Shown here: positions 8,576 through 47,852 of the stretch, piece after piece
Position numbering within the stretch: position 1 is the stretch's first letter
Layout of the letters: each line of letters begins with the position of its first letter
Assembly (NCBI RefSeq): GCF_021608265.1
Contig: NZ_JAKIHP010000002.1
Span: 124,001-188,000 of the forward strand
Reading direction: 5' to 3'
DNA length: 64,000 nucleotides
Source: Flavobacterium wongokense
GTDB taxonomy: Bacteria; Bacteroidota; Bacteroidia; Flavobacteriales; Flavobacteriaceae
Notes under the pieces: generated by a model
Told to the model about the DNA's origin: nothing
Database searches by the model: none
Seen by the model: only the letters and a program-made list of their open reading frames with translations
Program-made: the position numbers and the translations under genes

Positions 8576-9058
8576 ATGTACGTTCCTTTTGAAAATTTAC
8601 CAGAAGATTCCAAAATTTGGATTTACCAATCCAACCGAAAATTTTCAGATGATGAAATGTCCGAAATCGAAAATGATTTGAAAGCATTTATCGAAAACTG
8701 GGCAGCACACGGAACCGGATTGGAAGCTTCCTATTTATTAAAATACAACCGCTTTATTGTTCTTGCCGTCAATCAGGAAGTACAGCAGGCAACAGGCTGT
8801 TCGATAGATTCGTCAGTGGCATTTATCCAAAACCTGGAACAGAAATATAAAGTTGACTTATTGGATAAAATGAATGTAACCTTCAGGAATGGTGAGCACA
8901 TAGCCCACAAATCCCTGATTGATTTTAAACGAATGGCCAAGGAGAAAGCCGTTACCCAAAATACTATTGTTTTCAATAATTTAGTAAATACCATCGAAGA
9001 ATTCAACGAAAACTGGGAAGTTCCGGCTGGAGACAGCTGGCACAGCCGTTTCTTTTAA
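8576..9058 (+). CDS. Conserved small flavobacterial protein (often mislabelled ABC transporter ATPase)
   Basis: 160 residues beginning MYVPFENLPEDSKIWIYQS and ending GDSWHSRFF. I recall close relatives in Flavobacteriaceae being annotated as ABC transporter ATPase. This sequence has no Walker A, Walker B or signature motif, and is too short for an ATPase domain, so the name is unjustified. No signal peptide or membrane helix is seen. It follows the Fe-S oxidoreductase genes by about 50 bases and precedes the GH3 gene by 12. Function unknown. Confidence 0.8.
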   Translation: MYVPFENLPEDSKIWIYQSNRKFSDDEMSEIENDLKAFIENWAAHGTGLEASYLLKYNRFIVLAVNQEVQQATGCSIDSSVAFIQNLEQKYKVDLLDKMNVTFRNGEHIAHKSLIDFKRMAKEKAVTQNTIVFNNLVNTIEEFNENWEVPAGDSWHSRFF

Positions 9059-9070
9059 GCCCTAAATTTT

Positions 9071-12000
9071 ATGAAAAGGTTTTTGCTCAGAAGTGTTTCA
9101 TTATTTGGATTGTTGCTTTTGGTTTCGAATTGTTCGTCAACCAAAGTCAGCAAACCCGCTCCTGCAGTTGTTGCAAAAACCGAGGTAGTTGCTCCCGTTG
9201 ATGAAACAGCTTACGTACCACAAACCAAAAAGAACTTTTTCCCCGAAACAGAAGCCGAAACCCGTTGGGTTGACAGTATTTATAATCAAATGTCTTTTGA
9301 CCAAAAAGTAGGGCAGCTGTTTATGGTTGCGGCTTATTCCAATAAGGATGCTGCACACGTAGCTGACGTTGAAAAATTGGTTACCGAAAATAAGGTTGGC
9401 GGATTGATTTTCTTTCAGGGCGGACCAATGCGCCAGGCGTTGTTAACCAACAGGTATCAATCCCTTGCTAAAGTCCCTTTATTTATAGGCATTGATGCCG
9501 AATGGGGTTTGAGCATGCGTATTGACTCAACATTCCGTTATCCTTTTAATATGACTTTGGGTGCCATCAAAGACCTCAATCTGGTTCAGAAGGTTGGAAC
9601 TGCCATGGCTAAGGAGAGCAAAAGAATGGGAATCCATTTCAATTTTGCACCTGTTTTGGATATCAATACCAATCCCAAAAATCCAATCATTGGGTACCGT
9701 TCTTTTGGTGAAAACAAAGTCAATGTTACTGAACATGCCATTGCATTAATGAGTGGGGCACAAGGGCAGGGAATATTCTCAACAGGAAAACACTTTCCCG
9801 GCCACGGAGATACAGCAACCGATTCGCACAGCACGCTTCCGGTAGTCAACGCTACTTTAGACCATTTGGAAAAAGTGGAACTCTATCCTTATAAAAGAAT
9901 GTTCGATGAAGGGTTGGTGTCGGTGATGGTAGCTCATTTGAATGTGCCAAGCCTTGAGCCTCGTGAAGGTTATCCCACTTCGGTTTCGAAACATGTGGTT
10001 ACTGATGTATTGAAAGGCGAACTTGGTTTTGACGGACTTATCTTTACCGACGCACTGAACATGAAAGGCGCAGCCAATTTCAGAAAGCCGGGAGAACTCG
10101 ACTTGGAAGCTTTCCTTGCCGGAAATGACATTTTGCTTTTTGCCGAAAATGTACCACTTGCCGAAGAAAAAATATGCATGGCGTATCAGGATAGTTTATT
10201 AACAGATGCCCGATTGGCGCAGTCGGTGAAAAAGATATTGCATTATAAATTCAAGGCAGGCCTAAACAAATACAAACCCATCGAAGGCATCAATCTTTAT
10301 AACGATTTGAATCCGAAGTCGAATGAGACTTTGCAATATGAGCTGTATGAAAATGCGGTTACTGTTGTAAAAAATGATGGGAACATTTTGCCTATCAAAA
10401 ACCTGAATCAAAAAATTGCCTACGTAAAAATGGGCGATGATACCAACAGTTCCTTTGTAAATACCTTAAAAAAATATACCGAAGTCACCGAAGTCGCCGA
10501 TGCCAATATCGACACATTGATGACCAAGCTGACCAATTATGAAACCATCATCATTGGTTATCATAAATCGGATAAATCGTGGTGGAAATCACCCGAGCTG
10601 ACAGTTCCTGAATTGCAGATCATTGATTCCATTTCAAAAAAGAAAAAAGTAATCATTGACTGTTTTGCCAAACCATATTCCTTATCCAAGATTTTGAATT
10701 TCGGAGAACTGGAAGGTGTAATTGTTTCCTATCAGAATGGTGACATTGCACAGGAAGTTTCAGCAGAATTGATTTTTGGTGCTGTGGATGCCAAAGGATT
10801 GCTTCCCGTTTCGATCAACAGTACTTATAGCGCTGGCTATGGAATAACAACCCAGAAATTAAACCGTTTGGGTTTTGGTACACCGGAAAGTGTGGGAATG
10901 AATTCCGAAAAACTGAAGCAGATTGAGACCTATGCCCAAAAAGCCATTGATGGAAAAATGGCGCCGGGAATGCAGGTTCTTGTCGCACGAAAAGGAAAAG
11001 TCATTTACCAGAAATCATTTGGGAAACAAACCTATGAAGGTGATGTAAAGGTTAAAAATTCGGATTTATACGATGTGGCCTCATTGACCAAAATGGTTGC
11101 GACCTTACCCAATGTAATGCAGGTTTATGACCAAAAGAAAGTTACCCTTGAAACCACTTTGGGTGATATGCTGCCCAATTTCAAAGGTTCGAATAAAGAC
11201 AAAATGACTTTTAAGGAATTGCTTTCGCACTATGGCAGGATGCAGGCCTGGATTCCGTTTTATAAAGCTACTGTTGATTCGGCAAAAATGCCAATGGACA
11301 AATATTACAAAAAAGTATACTCTGAAGGATTTACCAAAAGAGTTTCAGACAGCCTGTATCTGAGAGATGATTATCACGATACCATCATGAAGCAAATTAT
11401 CAACAGTCCACTGATTGATAAAAAAGAGTACCGCTACAGCGATTTTACATTCATAATCCTAAAACAATATTTGGAAAGAATAATGGGCAGGCATTTAGAC
11501 GAATTGGCAACAGACAATTTCTACAAAACGCTCGGCATGAATAATACGACTTACAATCCGTTGACCAGGTTTGACAAAGCACGGATTGCTCCAACTGAAA
11601 TTGATACCTATTTCCGCCATGATTTGATTCAGGGATATGTTCATGATATGGAAGCGGCGATGGAAGAAGGAGTAGGAGGTCATGCCGGAATTTTTTCAAA
11701 TGCAATGGATATTGCCAAGATGATGCAGATGTATCTGCAGAAAGGAAATTATGGAGGTATTCAATATTTTAGCGAAGACACTTTCAATACGTTTAATACA
11801 AGTTGGTTTTATGGAGAAGGTGTACGTCGCGGACTTGGATTTGATAAACCACAGATAAGTGGTGGCGGTCCAACATGTGGCTGCGTATCGATGTCGAGTT
11901 TTGGGCATACAGGATTTACAGGAACCATGGCCTGGGCTGATCCGGCAACAGATATTGTTTACGTATTCCTTTCAAACCGCACTTATCCTGATTCTAATCT

Positions 12001-12076
12001 GCCCAACAAATTATCACAGCAGAACATTCGTGAAGACATTCAGCGTGTGATTCAGGATGCGATATTGGACAAATAA
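9071..12076 (+). CDS. Lipoprotein fusing GH3 glycosidase and beta-lactamase-fold serine hydrolase
   Basis: 1001 residues. A lipoprotein signal ends VSNC with the lipidated cysteine at 21. Residues about 60-400 form a GH3 domain of the NagZ type: KHFPGHGDTATDSH near residue 240 carries the catalytic Asp/His loop and GLIFTDALNMKGA near residue 325 the nucleophile Asp. A GH3 C-terminal-like segment follows to about 600. Residues 610-1001 are a class C beta-lactamase/PBP-like domain with SLTK near 671-674, YSD near 797 and GHTGFTG near 946. Probable role: recycling or trimming peptidoglycan at the outer membrane, with the second domain a D-amino-acid peptidase or esterase. Expected catalytic motifs are intact in both halves. 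Confidence 0.9.
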   Translation: MKRFLLRSVSLFGLLLLVSNCSSTKVSKPAPAVVAKTEVVAPVDETAYVPQTKKNFFPETEAETRWVDSIYNQMSFDQKVGQLFMVAAYSNKDAAHVADVEKLVTENKVGGLIFFQGGPMRQALLTNRYQSLAKVPLFIGIDAEWGLSMRIDSTFRYPFNMTLGAIKDLNLVQKVGTAMAKESKRMGIHFNFAPVLDINTNPKNPIIGYRSFGENKVNVTEHAIALMSGAQGQGIFSTGKHFPGHGDTATDSHSTLPVVNATLDHLEKVELYPYKRMFDEGLVSVMVAHLNVPSLEPREGYPTSVSKHVVTDVLKGELGFDGLIFTDALNMKGAANFRKPGELDLEAFLAGNDILLFAENVPLAEEKICMAYQDSLLTDARLAQSVKKILHYKFKAGLNKYKPIEGINLYNDLNPKSNETLQYELYENAVTVVKNDGNILPIKNLNQKIAYVKMGDDTNSSFVNTLKKYTEVTEVADANIDTLMTKLTNYETIIIGYHKSDKSWWKSPELTVPELQIIDSISKKKKVIIDCFAKPYSLSKILNFGELEGVIVSYQNGDIAQEVSAELIFGAVDAKGLLPVSINSTYSAGYGITTQKLNRLGFGTPESVGMNSEKLKQIETYAQKAIDGKMAPGMQVLVARKGKVIYQKSFGKQTYEGDVKVKNSDLYDVASLTKMVATLPNVMQVYDQKKVTLETTLGDMLPNFKGSNKDKMTFKELLSHYGRMQAWIPFYKATVDSAKMPMDKYYKKVYSEGFTKRVSDSLYLRDDYHDTIMKQIINSPLIDKKEYRYSDFTFIILKQYLERIMGRHLDELATDNFYKTLGMNNTTYNPLTRFDKARIAPTEIDTYFRHDLIQGYVHDMEAAMEEGVGGHAGIFSNAMDIAKMMQMYLQKGNYGGIQYFSEDTFNTFNTSWFYGEGVRRGLGFDKPQISGGGPTCGCVSMSSFGHTGFTGTMAWADPATDIVYVFLSNRTYPDSNLPNKLSQQNIREDIQRVIQDAILDK

Positions 12077-12110
12077 TCCACAGATAATATATTAATAATC
12101 AAACGATAAA

Positions 12111-12134
12111 CCTCAAGTAATCTTGAGGTTTTTT
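12111..12134 (+). terminator. Intrinsic terminator after GH3 fusion gene
   Basis: CCTCAAG-TAAT-CTTGAGG hairpin followed by TTTTTT, 35 bases downstream of the stop codon. Confidence 0.8.
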
Positions 12135-12243
12135 ATTTGTACTCCCTCCGACATGGGATATATATAAACAATCAGATTAATCATGTAATGCGTTTCGGAG
12201 CAGAGTTAGCCAACTTTGTAATACAATCAAAAACAAAGAAACT

Positions 12244-12495
12244 ATGAAACCAAACGAAGTACAGGAAGCTTTTAAAATTCCCAGCGATTGGGATGTAAAA
12301 GCAAAACTATTGCGAAGGAGATTCCCGCAGCTTACATCATCAGATTTAGAGATCGATGAAAAGGAAGACGAAAATAGTTTGTTAAAGCGGATTGAAATCC
12401 GACTCAACAAAAAAAGGAATGAAGTAATAGAAATTATCAAAAACACAATACCAAACAAATTCATTAATAATTTAAAAATTCAATATCATGAGTAA
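12244..12495 (+). CDS. CsbD-like general stress protein
   Basis: 83 residues. The pattern IPSDWDVKAKLLRRRFPQLT, then a DL-E spacing, LLKRIEIRLNKKRNEVIEII matches the CsbD-like fold seen in Bacteroidota (W..K.KL..F..LT..DL...LL.RI..K..EV..II). No signal or membrane segment. The last eight bases overlap the next gene. It opens a cluster of stress-type genes (Lmo0937, YtxH, DUF1469) and is probably induced by osmotic or envelope stress; no operator was recognised. Confidence 0.72.
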   Translation: MKPNEVQEAFKIPSDWDVKAKLLRRRFPQLTSSDLEIDEKEDENSLLKRIEIRLNKKRNEVIEIIKNTIPNKFINNLKIQYHE

Positions 12496-33725: not shown

Positions 33726-33808
33726 TTTAAACTGTTTTCTAGCCCGGATTGCAACGGCATCCTTTTGCTTTAGCAAAAGATATAGTGGAAAGCCGGATTA
33801 GCTCCTAA

Positions 33809-45595: not shown

Positions 45596-46384
45596 TTAGA
45601 CTTTCCCCAAAGTATATAATTGTTCCATTGTTGGTGTTGGGCTTCCTCCGGCTGGTTCAAGCGTTATTCCAAATGCTTCTGCATCTCCTGTCTTTTCAAC
45701 AGCGAAAACCTTGCTTCGGTTGTCTTTGAAATTGGCCAAAGTTCCAATGCTGGTTGGCGTCAACTGTGGCTGTAATTTCAACGACCAGATTTGGTATTCC
45801 TTTCCTTCCGGTGGTGTTGGCAATCCGCTGGCGTCTACATACACGACCTGAGTTTGTTTGTTCCAGTATATTTTTGCTTTGGCAGTTGGCGCTACAGCCT
45901 GTCCGGCAAGAGCTACTACAGTATTGGTTTCGTCACGAACCACATTCAGGACGGTTTCTGTTTGCTTGTTTTTTGTTTCCAAATCTACTACAGTTTCCTG
46001 TAATTTTGATTTTTCCTTTTCTATCGTTGCCACCTGATTGTTCGCCTGGTTCACTTTTGAATATTGGTAGCCAATTCCGATTAGTAGTAGTATTGAAGCA
46101 GCCCATCCTATGTAAGCAGACCAATTGCTTCGGTCTCTCATGGTTACGACTTTTCCGTGTTTCAGCTCGAGCTGTGCCTTGATTTTTTCGAACTGGCTAT
46201 GCGAAATAAAAGGAGAGAAGCTACTTGACAGGTTTATGATTGCCTTTTCAATAGCGAGGATTTCAGTCTTTATTTCCGGGTTTTTATTGGACATTGCAGC
46301 AACTTCATCATTTTCTGATTCGCTAAGCAAACCATAAACATAGAGTTCCAATATTCCTGATTCTATATATTCTTTACTTTCCAT
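45596..46384 (-). CDS. RskA-type anti-sigma factor
   Basis: 262 residues from the ATG at 46384, which overlaps the sigma gene stop by one base (TAATG). An N-terminal cytosolic part (MESKEYIESGILELYVYGLL, about 1-90) is followed by one transmembrane helix at about 94-112 (YIGWAASILLLIGIGYQYS), a coiled coil (about 113-155), and a periplasmic RskA C-terminal domain (IYWNKQTQVVYVDASGLP, EYQIWSLKLQ, FAVTLEP-like FGITLEPAGGSPTPT). It should hold the sigma factor encoded just upstream until an envelope signal releases it. Confidence 0.9.
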   Translation of the reverse strand: MESKEYIESGILELYVYGLLSESENDEVAAMSNKNPEIKTEILAIEKAIINLSSSFSPFISHSQFEKIKAQLELKHGKVVTMRDRSNWSAYIGWAASILLLIGIGYQYSKVNQANNQVATIEKEKSKLQETVVDLETKNKQTETVLNVVRDETNTVVALAGQAVAPTAKAKIYWNKQTQVVYVDASGLPTPPEGKEYQIWSLKLQPQLTPTSIGTLANFKDNRSKVFAVEKTGDAEAFGITLEPAGGSPTPTMEQLYTLGKV

Positions 46385-46914
46385 TACACTTTTAAAAAAT
46401 TTCGTAGGTCGTTGATACAATTTCGATTTTGGGTCTTAACAGTTCCAAGCGGCATTTTTAATTCATCCGAAGCTTCCTGTTGCGTGAATCCTTTGAAGAA
46501 CAGCAGGTCAATTAACTGAATGCATTTTGGCTTGAGTTTGTTGACAAATTCCCTTAGTCCAATGCTGTCTATCCTATTGGTCAGCTTGTTGCTGTCATCC
46601 AACAGATGTACGAAATTATCAGAGGATAGGTTTTTCTGGCTGTTGTTAAAACCTTTGGAACGCAGCTTGTCAATCGCAGCGTTGCGGGTGATGTTGAGCA
46701 TCCATGTATATAATCTTCCTTTGCTTTGATTATAGGTTTCGATGTTTTTCCAGATTTTGACAAACACTTCCTGAAGCACATCTTCGGCTTCTTCACGGTC
46801 GCTTATCAAATTAGTAATGATACTAAAAAGGCTTTTGGAATACATATCGTATAAAAGGGTAAATGCCCTTTCTTCCTTTCTTAAGAGCAATGGTAATAGT
46901 TCTTCCTGTGTCAT
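46384..46914 (-). CDS. ECF-type RNA polymerase sigma factor
   Basis: 176 residues. Region 2: FTLLYDMYSKSLFSIITNLI then AEDVLQEVFVKIWKNIETYN and GRLYTWMLNITRNAAIDKLR (about 15-95). Region 4: IQLIDLLFFKGFTQQEASDE and PLGTVKTQNRNCINDLRNFL (about 130-175). Paired with the anti-sigma gene by a one-base stop/start overlap. Regulon not deducible; the A/T-rich gap upstream holds a probable structured RNA transcribed the other way. Confidence 0.93.
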   Translation of the reverse strand: MTQEELLPLLLRKEERAFTLLYDMYSKSLFSIITNLISDREEAEDVLQEVFVKIWKNIETYNQSKGRLYTWMLNITRNAAIDKLRSKGFNNSQKNLSSDNFVHLLDDSNKLTNRIDSIGLREFVNKLKPKCIQLIDLLFFKGFTQQEASDELKMPLGTVKTQNRNCINDLRNFLKV

Positions 46915-47046
46915 ACTTTAAAATGTTTATTGTAAAAATAGAATGTTTTGCCTTTAAACAGTTGTTAAATATAGAATTAAATTTTAACATTTCCTTAAAC
47001 CTTTTTGCAAACAATGCTTCAAAATCGTTAATTGAATGTCAAGTGG

Positions 47047-47203
47047 TAGGGTATACGAAACCCTAACTGTTTTTATAGCGTATATGACGTCAGGGAAGAT
47101 TTGCTATGAAAATATTTCTTTCGAGGTTTTGGTAATAGAAAGGTTTTCTATTATGTTTTGTTAGGGGAACCCAGCGGATGATTAGACGCTGGGTTCTTTT
47201 TTG
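47047..47203 (+). ncRNA. Candidate structured RNA or leader element
   Basis: Seven-base closing stem CCCTAAC (47061-47067) with GTTAGGG (47160-47166). Inside it: ATAGC (47075-47079) with GCTAT (47103-47107), and a perfect 9-bp hairpin TAATAGAAA/TTTCTATTA (47133-47153, loop GGT). TAGGG (47047-47051) can also pair with CCCTA (47061-47065), competing with the closing stem, which would give a two-state fold. A terminator follows immediately. No plus-strand gene lies upstream for this terminator, so a small RNA or a leader controlling the peroxidase gene is plausible. It could be a known flavobacterial RNA family. Confidence 0.45.
47167..47202 (+). terminator. Intrinsic terminator ending the candidate RNA
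   Basis: GAACCCAGCG-GATGATTAGA-CGCTGGGTTC followed by TTTTTT; a 10-bp GC-rich stem 68 bases before the peroxidase start. Confidence 0.85.
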
Positions 47204-47270
47204 TTTACAATTTTAAGGAATGTATAACAGTAACTCTTGAAATTATCATTAATTTTATCAAAAATTATGT

Positions 47271-47852
47271 ATGAAAAAGTTCTCTCTATTCGTAACAATA
47301 TTAACGCTATTCAGCTGCCAGAATCAGGCGCAAAACAATAAAAAAATGGAAACACAAGCACCAATAAAAACGGAAACAATCTATCAGTTTAAGGTAACCG
47401 ATTTGTACGGCAAGGAATTCGACTTTGCCTCACTTAAAGGTAAAAAAATACTAATCGTCAATACGGCTTCTGAATGTGGTTTGACACCACAATACAAAGA
47501 CCTGGAAGCCATTTATGAAAAATATAAAGATAAAAATTTTGTCATCATAGGTTTCCCTGCCAATAATTTTGGCGCACAGGAACCTGGAAGCAATGACCAG
47601 ATTGCCAAATTCTGTGAAATGAATTACGGCGTTACTTTCCCAATGATGGGCAAGATATCGGTAAAAGGGGATGACATGCATTCGGTTTATAAATTCCTTA
47701 CCCAGAAAAGCAAAAACGGATTGCAGGACAGCGAAGTGGAATGGAACTTTCAAAAATACCTGATCAATGAGCAGGGTGAATTGGTGAAAGTATTATCTCC
47801 AAGAATATTGCCAACAGATGCGGCCATTGTAGGCTGGATTAACGGAAAATAA
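47271..47852 (+). CDS. Glutathione-peroxidase-family lipoprotein (Cys type)
   Basis: 193 residues. A lipoprotein signal (MKKFSLFVTILTLFSC, Cys at 16) precedes a GPx fold: peroxidatic C69 in NTASECGLTPQ, FPANNFGAQEPG with Q103, and WNFQKYLI with the Trp/Asn pair. It uses cysteine, not selenocysteine, so it is probably thioredoxin-dependent, reducing lipid or organic peroxides in the periplasm or at the membrane. It is preceded by the candidate structured RNA. Confidence 0.92.
   Translation: MKKFSLFVTILTLFSCQNQAQNNKKMETQAPIKTETIYQFKVTDLYGKEFDFASLKGKKILIVNTASECGLTPQYKDLEAIYEKYKDKNFVIIGFPANNFGAQEPGSNDQIAKFCEMNYGVTFPMMGKISVKGDDMHSVYKFLTQKSKNGLQDSEVEWNFQKYLINEQGELVKVLSPRILPTDAAIVGWINGK

Follow-up and report, generated by a model that had tools for sequence, protein, structure and literature searches.

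A conserved predicted small RNA between divergent ECF sigma factor and glutathione peroxidase genes in Flavobacterium wongokense

The window is a 64,000-nt stretch of Flavobacterium wongokense DNA (assembly GCF_021608265.1, contig NZ_JAKIHP010000002.1, positions 124,001 to 188,000), and all positions below refer to it. It encodes an ECF sigma factor and an anti-sigma factor on the reverse strand and a glutathione peroxidase (GPx) on the forward strand. The gap between the sigma gene and the GPx gene is 356 nt. It contains the stretch 47047-47203, which a preliminary description had presented as a candidate structured RNA. The first half of this stretch (47047 to about 47088) is the promoter, and the second half (about 47089 to 47203) is the RNA. 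The locus contains the following features.

45596-46384, reverse strand: gene for an RskA-type anti-sigma factor (Pfam RskA_C, E = 4.3e-19), 3' of the sigma gene with a slight overlap.
46384-46914, reverse strand: gene for an ECF sigma factor (Pfam Sigma70_r2, E = 5.8e-18; Sigma70_r4; Sigma70_ECF), divergent from the RNA.
47058-47082, forward strand: ECF-type promoter of the RNA, with a -35 element AAACC (47058-47062), a 16-nt spacer and a -10 element CGTA (47079-47082).
47089-47203, forward strand: predicted small RNA of about 115 nt, its start placed from the promoter and its end in the T run.
47094-47122, forward strand: H1, a weak 5' hairpin (GGAAGA at 47094-47099 with UCUUUC at 47117-47122; loop motif GCUAUG at 47103-47108), from the centroid fold of the window.
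47123-47131, forward strand: linker 1, a GU-rich single strand with consensus GGUUUUUUGUUUUG; its unpaired columns are mostly conserved, with gaps, in 23 sequences.
47132-47154, forward strand: H2, a 9-bp hairpin; 98.4% of cells are paired and 6 of 8 pairs change on both sides (23 sequences).
47155-47162, forward strand: linker 2, the single strand GUUUUGUU, with consensus AUGUUUGUU and near-invariant columns.
47163-47202, forward strand: H3, an intrinsic terminator with a T run; 95.9% of cells are paired and 10 of 13 pairs change on both sides.
47250-47257, forward strand: promoter-like -7 box TAATTTTA of the GPx gene, downstream of the terminator.
47271-47852, forward strand: gene for GPx (Pfam GSHPx, E = 1.6e-40), a separate downstream gene.

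The full-length element is present as a single copy in its own genome, so a multi-copy or mobile-repeat reading was rejected. An Rfam search, suggested earlier with Flavo-1 in mind, returned no family at threshold within 47047-47203. The sole hit in the window was Flavo-1 itself (RF01705), a flavobacterial small RNA, which is clear at 33737-33803 on the forward strand (66.4 bits, cut-off 42). No Rfam 15 family reached its gathering score in 12 relatives' loci. In a permissive search of the stretch, the highest-scoring chance match was CopA, at 19.9 bits where 60 are required.

Every string named in the preliminary description is present in the sequence. CCCTAAC (47061-47067) and GTTAGGG (47160-47166) are the arms of its 7-bp closing stem, and TAGGG (47047-47051) is the competing strand. 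TATAGC (47074-47079) and GCTATG (47103-47108) form its first hairpin. The 9-bp hairpin (47132-47154) contains one G-U pair, and the terminator is at 47163-47202. The region folds better than shuffled sequence (z = -4.3 for 47030-47210; z = -3.2 for the portion judged transcribed). Of the elements drawn earlier, only the 9-bp hairpin and the terminator hold up as RNA structure; the weak 5' hairpin H1, absent from that drawing, joins them. The closing stem, the competing stem and the first hairpin are not conserved. Taken in the best register, all 7 pairs of the closing stem form in the window alone, against 4-5 of 7 in the 10 other syntenic loci. Competing TAGGG pairs 5/5 only in the window and 1-4/5 in the 10 others, and the first hairpin 6/6 only in the window and 4-5/6 in the others, again in the best register. 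The 5' arms of all three sit in or just before the fixed-spacing ECF promoter. The proposed switch between competing stems is thus not borne out, since its arms are promoter DNA and their pairing is not conserved. A minus-strand RNA was also rejected. That strand folds about equally well (z = -5.1), as expected of hairpins, and the conserved promoter and T run are on the plus strand.

Below, L and G numbers denote loci and genomes. DNA similarity was of little use for collecting relatives: 98 of 100 genomes (own included) matched at E <= 1, and among the matches listed those outside the own locus were short. At E <= 1e-4, the RNA part alone matched only G367 and the own genome among 398. Loci were collected by synteny through the sigma gene. 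Each of the 398 genomes sampled from the genus, the own genome among them, has some homologue of it, and the 30 best loci were inspected. The order sigma gene, RNA, GPx is kept in 11 of these best 30, window included. A twelfth locus (L060) has the promoter and terminator with a longer, different insert. When the 11 syntenic gaps are aligned, the flank on the sigma side does not align; it is followed by A[AT]CC-N16-CG[AT]A and, after that, by the conserved RNA.

The promoter was scored in 58 sigma-bearing neighbourhoods (of 60 fetched), classed by the content of the interval from the sigma gene to GPx. The strict motif was A[AT]CC-N16-CGTA within 500 nt of the sigma start. Of 36 loci carrying RNA or cargo, 33 have it, vs 0 of 22 loci without. 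By class, it was found in 9/10 RNA-only loci, 10/10 loci with a DUF4331 operon, 6/6 with small-protein cargo and 8/10 with other inserts. None of the 8 loci with GPx directly adjacent contains it, nor any of the 14 without GPx nearby. By chance, at most 0.03 loci would be expected in each class with the promoter. The spacer is 16 nt in 33 of the 36 RNA-or-cargo loci, and spacers of 17-22 nt occur in none of them. The only RNA-only locus lacking the strict motif, L095, comes from the genome that also carries L036; there CGAA stands at the 16-nt spacing. In L169 the spacer reads 17. A promoter of this kind is absent just upstream of the RNA in three loci (L189 copy B, L072 and L073). The RNA is thus preceded by a fixed-spacing ECF-type promoter, as expected of an ECF-sigma-dependent sRNA. 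AAACC-N16-CGTA is presumed to be the site of the divergently encoded ECF sigma factor. From its position, we infer that the RNA starts near 47089, within 3 nt. In F. psychrophilum, a CGT-type ECF promoter motif (SM6) is ascribed to ECF sigma factors, and the sRNA Rfp11 is listed under SM6 (PMC9723704). In many of the neighbourhoods L094-L153, a reverse-strand ECF-like match recurs about 250 nt into the sigma gene. It is probably a coding constraint and possibly an internal promoter.

A covariance model was built from 8 sequences and gathered 23 sequences from 22 of the 23 loci given to it. In the resulting alignment, which was fitted to the model's structure and flatters it (8 of the 23 rows built the model), 94.4% of cells are paired and 20 of 28 pairs change on both sides with pairing kept. 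Compensatory changes in the stems had been named earlier as the check; they are present in H2, the terminator and, less fully, H1. None of 500 shuffles reached any of five covariation measures. Sliding the partners by 1-3 columns lowered pairing to 41-55%. An earlier set of 17 sequences gave the same picture. In a plain MAFFT alignment of 11 sequences, 7 of 12 terminator pairs change on both sides, and H2 is missed. Single-sequence minimum-energy folds contain the terminator in 11/11 and H2 in 9/11 (z = -3.2 to -7.6). The exceptions are the window, where H2 appears in the centroid only, and L041, which favours another pairing.

H1 is the weakest part of the RNA. Its helices 1 and 2 are paired in 89% and 74% of cells, and 4 of 7 pairs change on both sides. 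Part of this covariation comes from operon-end rows in which the strand is partly receptor coding sequence. The H1 motif is absent from L039, L045 and L177. The RNA has a conserved structure and an intrinsic terminator with no conserved ORF (judged by eye on aligned sequences), as expected of an ECF-dependent sRNA. Its conserved unpaired linkers are what an accessible seed of a trans-acting, base-pairing sRNA would look like. Alternatively, the RNA could code for a short peptide from the conserved ATG of GCTATGA; most members with H1 have this ATG. We regard this as barely credible. The frames from the ATG vary from about 3 to 25 aa and share no common peptide (by eye, aligned sequences), and L044 lacks an ATG at that position.

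Run on the 398 genomes, the covariance model matched 63 at E <= 0.05, and 12 of these were above 50 bits. Neighbourhoods of weak matches were read for 19 of the 22 loci L072-L093; L075, L081 and L084 are known copies. Ten of these matches (L078, L083, L085-L090, L092, L093) resemble ordinary gene-end terminators. Three others (L076, L080, L091) are operon ends with a GU tract but no clear H2. Both groups were kept out of the covariation set. In a family sample of 199 genomes, 198 besides the own and nearly all of other genera (at least G060 is of the same genus), the one other match at E <= 0.001 was an ordinary-looking terminator. The RNA-only loci number 16 once L169, L170, L171, L176 and L177 are added; L177 lies below the model threshold and was judged by eye. 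Carriers include F. terrisoli and F. dankookense, the latter in the form that lacks H1.

The module was compared with 179 strict terminators from the window and 60 neighbourhoods. Terminators were assigned to the site class by position alone, as upstream of GPx or behind a TonB receptor. A G/T run of at least 9 in the 45 nt before the stem was found in 20 of 23 site terminators vs 8 of 156 others. TTTGTT lies at most 25 nt ahead of 19 of 23 site terminators vs 3 of 156 others. The GU-rich tract before the terminator is specific to this site and rare among the other terminators.

GPx follows the RNA and most likely has a promoter of its own beyond the terminator, judging from the sequence there. 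The box TAATTTTA/TTACTTTT lies about 20 nt before the GPx start codon and is kept in loci with the RNA (by eye). Among 8 loci that lack the RNA and have GPx next to the sigma gene, 7 also contain the box (by eye; L114 is unclear). It is similar to the -7 consensus of flavobacteria, TAnnTTTG, and leaders there are usually short (PMC9723704). These observations bear on the second option of the preliminary description, a termination-control leader in which the ECF promoter would read through the terminator into GPx under some condition. Most verified RNAs do lie directly before GPx despite differing upstream neighbours (a cytochrome-assembly-like gene, a TonB receptor). GPx keeps its promoter-like box, also where the RNA is absent, so attenuation of GPx is very unlikely. 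The closing and competing stems drawn as the anti-terminator are found in the window only. An operon-end copy (L079) is followed by no GPx within about 1.5 kb, and the same is true of the terminator form without a clear H2 in L076/L113. A motif similar to AAAACTTTA-N4-TTGTATAAC is present at about 47205-47230 on the forward strand and lies between terminator and GPx in many GPx-linked loci. A similar string precedes the RNA promoter in L038. The motif is perhaps an operator of the peroxidase.

The position of the module differs among relatives. In the window's clade, the ECF promoter lies directly before the RNA. In several relatives, the module is found only as an operon end. Copies in L074, L077 and L082 end an ECF-promoted DUF4331...TonB-receptor operon, which is about 5 kb in relatives; its Pfam labels were tested on the L105 operon, and the L082 contig ends about 120 nt past the module. 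The L079 copy is also behind a TonB receptor. In L072 the RNA lies before GPx and behind a TonB receptor, and the sigma gene of that genome is frameshifted. In L073 the RNA lies before GPx and follows a cytochrome-assembly-like gene; the 17 kb around it contain no sigma gene. F. paronense (L189, about 11988-12253, reversed) has two tandem modules between a TonB receptor and GPx, one operon-end copy and one H1-bearing copy. In both L189 and L072, the H1-bearing copy is downstream of an operon.

Two further observations concern these neighbourhoods. At L255 (G172; about 8600-9150, reversed), a frameshift interrupts the sigma gene, and the anti-sigma gene, operon and RNA are still there. The frameshift may be real or an assembly error. 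Loci L136, L138, L148-L150 and L153 contain inserts of several hundred bases between the ECF promoter and GPx, with no plus-strand ORF of 100 aa. Where the ends were seen (L136, L138, L153), the inserts finish in a GU-rich tract and terminator. These inserts may be other RNAs.

A protein tree of sigma and anti-sigma factors (59 rows) places the RNA-only loci in three groups. Two of these are sister to operon-bearing loci (support 98/96 and 93/92). This pattern fits repeated loss of the operon, with promoter and 3' module left behind, as well as its gain by exchange. The H1 strand resembles the receptor C-terminus in one frame (GKICY vs GKITYRF) in 13 of 16 H1 rows, against a receptor-end motif chosen after the sequences were seen. 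At the DNA level, the similarity of H1 to 13 receptor ends was equalled by 10 of 200 shuffles or fewer in only 4 of 16 rows (L041, L072, L073, L169), and it was below the shuffle mean in L035 and L170. The resemblance is suggestive of H1 as a relic of the TonB-receptor gene end, left by a deletion that ended inside the receptor gene.

Such a history would also fit an inert remnant, in which the operon was lost and its promoter and terminator stayed to stop read-through into GPx. A like terminator does end the DUF4331...TonB-receptor operon under the same promoter in relatives, RNA-only and operon forms alternate on the tree, and the H1 resemblance points the same way to the extent just given. 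We consider this reading unlikely: RNA-only loci retain the terminator, H2 and the two linkers, with compensatory changes. An RNA form is also still found next to an operon end in L189, in L073, which lacks a nearby sigma gene, and in L072, where that gene is frameshifted.

The module might also serve the operons themselves, as a 3'-end processing or stabilising element that sets mRNA stability or terminator strength and does not act in trans. The GU-rich tract and terminator end cargo operons, including small-protein cargo without H2 (L106, L112, L120, L121). A small-protein operon in the own genome ends in the same way. This reading is less likely still than an inert remnant, since the RNA-only form has no message to stabilise and keeps H2 and both linkers.

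The reading we prefer, and think likely, is that 47089-47203 is a free-standing sRNA of about 115 nt, started by the neighbouring ECF sigma factor at AAACC-N16-CGTA and ended by its own terminator, with linkers that base-pair with other mRNAs. Synteny, promoter, covariation and conserved linkers all agree with the stand-alone RNA that the preliminary description had offered as its first option. The promoter motif, conserved structure, conserved linkers and terminator were computed; transcription, sigma identity, base pairing and targets are inferred. Release of the sigma factor by the RskA-type anti-sigma factor would come first. Polymerase with the ECF sigma factor would then start the RNA at the promoter, and transcription would end at H3. 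Being under the ECF sigma factor, the RNA would be made on anti-sigma release, together with the envelope or secreted-protein genes of the regulon. Its GU-rich single strands, placed between hairpins, would most likely pair with A/C-rich leaders of other mRNAs.

The promoter pattern has 12 hits in the own genome vs 19 for a reversed-pattern control, i.e. it is not enriched. Three of the 11 other hits (L158, L162, L163) precede a small-protein operon, a gene with a fasciclin domain (Pfam E = 7.9e-34) and a DUF4394 gene (Pfam E = 3.6e-145). Counted from the first base of the promoter motif, the fasciclin-domain and DUF4394 genes begin at 56-57 nt. In the small-protein operon, the first ORF (35 aa) is at 57 nt from the motif and a small-protein pair follows from 438 nt. 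Since the pattern is not above control, these three candidate assignments depend on gene context. The linker-2 pattern has 4 hits in the own genome (own site included) vs 2 in the control. One of these hits lies where the ECF-promoted small-protein operon ends.

In the own genome, sites nearly complementary to linker 1 or linker 2 do not exceed the control (96 vs 133 and 7 vs 9). Placing was attempted for 19 of 101 non-self sites; 17 were located, and 1 is near a start codon. The simple complementarity search of the own genome gave no convincing target. Hfq (PF17209) was not found in this genome, which is 99.94% complete; the control found Hfq in 5 of 14 genomes. Most Bacteroidota lack the usual Hfq and Shine-Dalgarno framework.

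The predicted RNA can be compared with known systems of other bacteria. The sigma-E-dependent sRNAs (MicA, RybB, MicL; FoxJ of Fusobacterium) are short, carry their own terminator and are transcribed under an ECF sigma factor of envelope stress. The window RNA is predicted to share the ECF sigma factor and the terminator, and differs in that no Hfq was found here. GcvB has a G/U-rich single-stranded linker between hairpins, which is the proposed seed for A/C-rich mRNA leaders. The window RNA has a similar GU-rich linker between hairpins, with putative pairing by analogy. SigK/RskA of mycobacteria drives fasciclin-type antigens. The actinobacterial pair and that of the window are alike in combining an ECF sigma factor with an RskA_C anti-sigma factor, and a fasciclin-domain gene is among the candidate regulon here. 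We know of no sRNA that is part of the SigK-RskA regulon.

Closer in phylogeny are Rfp11 and Rfp18 of F. psychrophilum (PMC9723704), compared here by their published descriptions. Both are sRNAs from a flavobacterium and, like the window RNA, have a strong predicted structure. Rfp11 is listed under a CGT-type ECF promoter, SM6 (PMC9723704), the kind predicted for the window RNA. Rfp18 affects metalloprotease mRNAs and is described there as widely conserved in the genus (PMC9723704); strong matches to the window RNA are few, with 12 of 398 genomes above 50 bits. No description of the window RNA itself was found in the open-licence PMC literature on Flavobacterium sRNA and ECF, in the portions consulted.

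On the sequence evidence, the conserved RNA appears to be real and is absent from Rfam. It is probably driven by an ECF sigma factor, and its regulatory function is putative. A wider reading is tentative and rather doubtful: a new sRNA family could alternate at one sigma locus between forming the 3' terminus of an ECF operon and, where the operon is absent, standing alone directly on the ECF promoter. Its 5' hairpin would perhaps be the receptor's last codons, and it would act through GU-rich linkers on A-rich, Shine-Dalgarno-free starts. If this is true, the RNA would be a hub regulator suited to flavobacterial translation starts without Hfq. The operon ends, tandem copies and stand-alone RNAs of related species form a natural series for a 3'-end RNA becoming an independent regulator. 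The regulatory RNAs of the Bacteroidota are poorly mapped, and this locus offers a covariation-backed RNA family with a predicted sigma factor, a promoter and candidate seeds.
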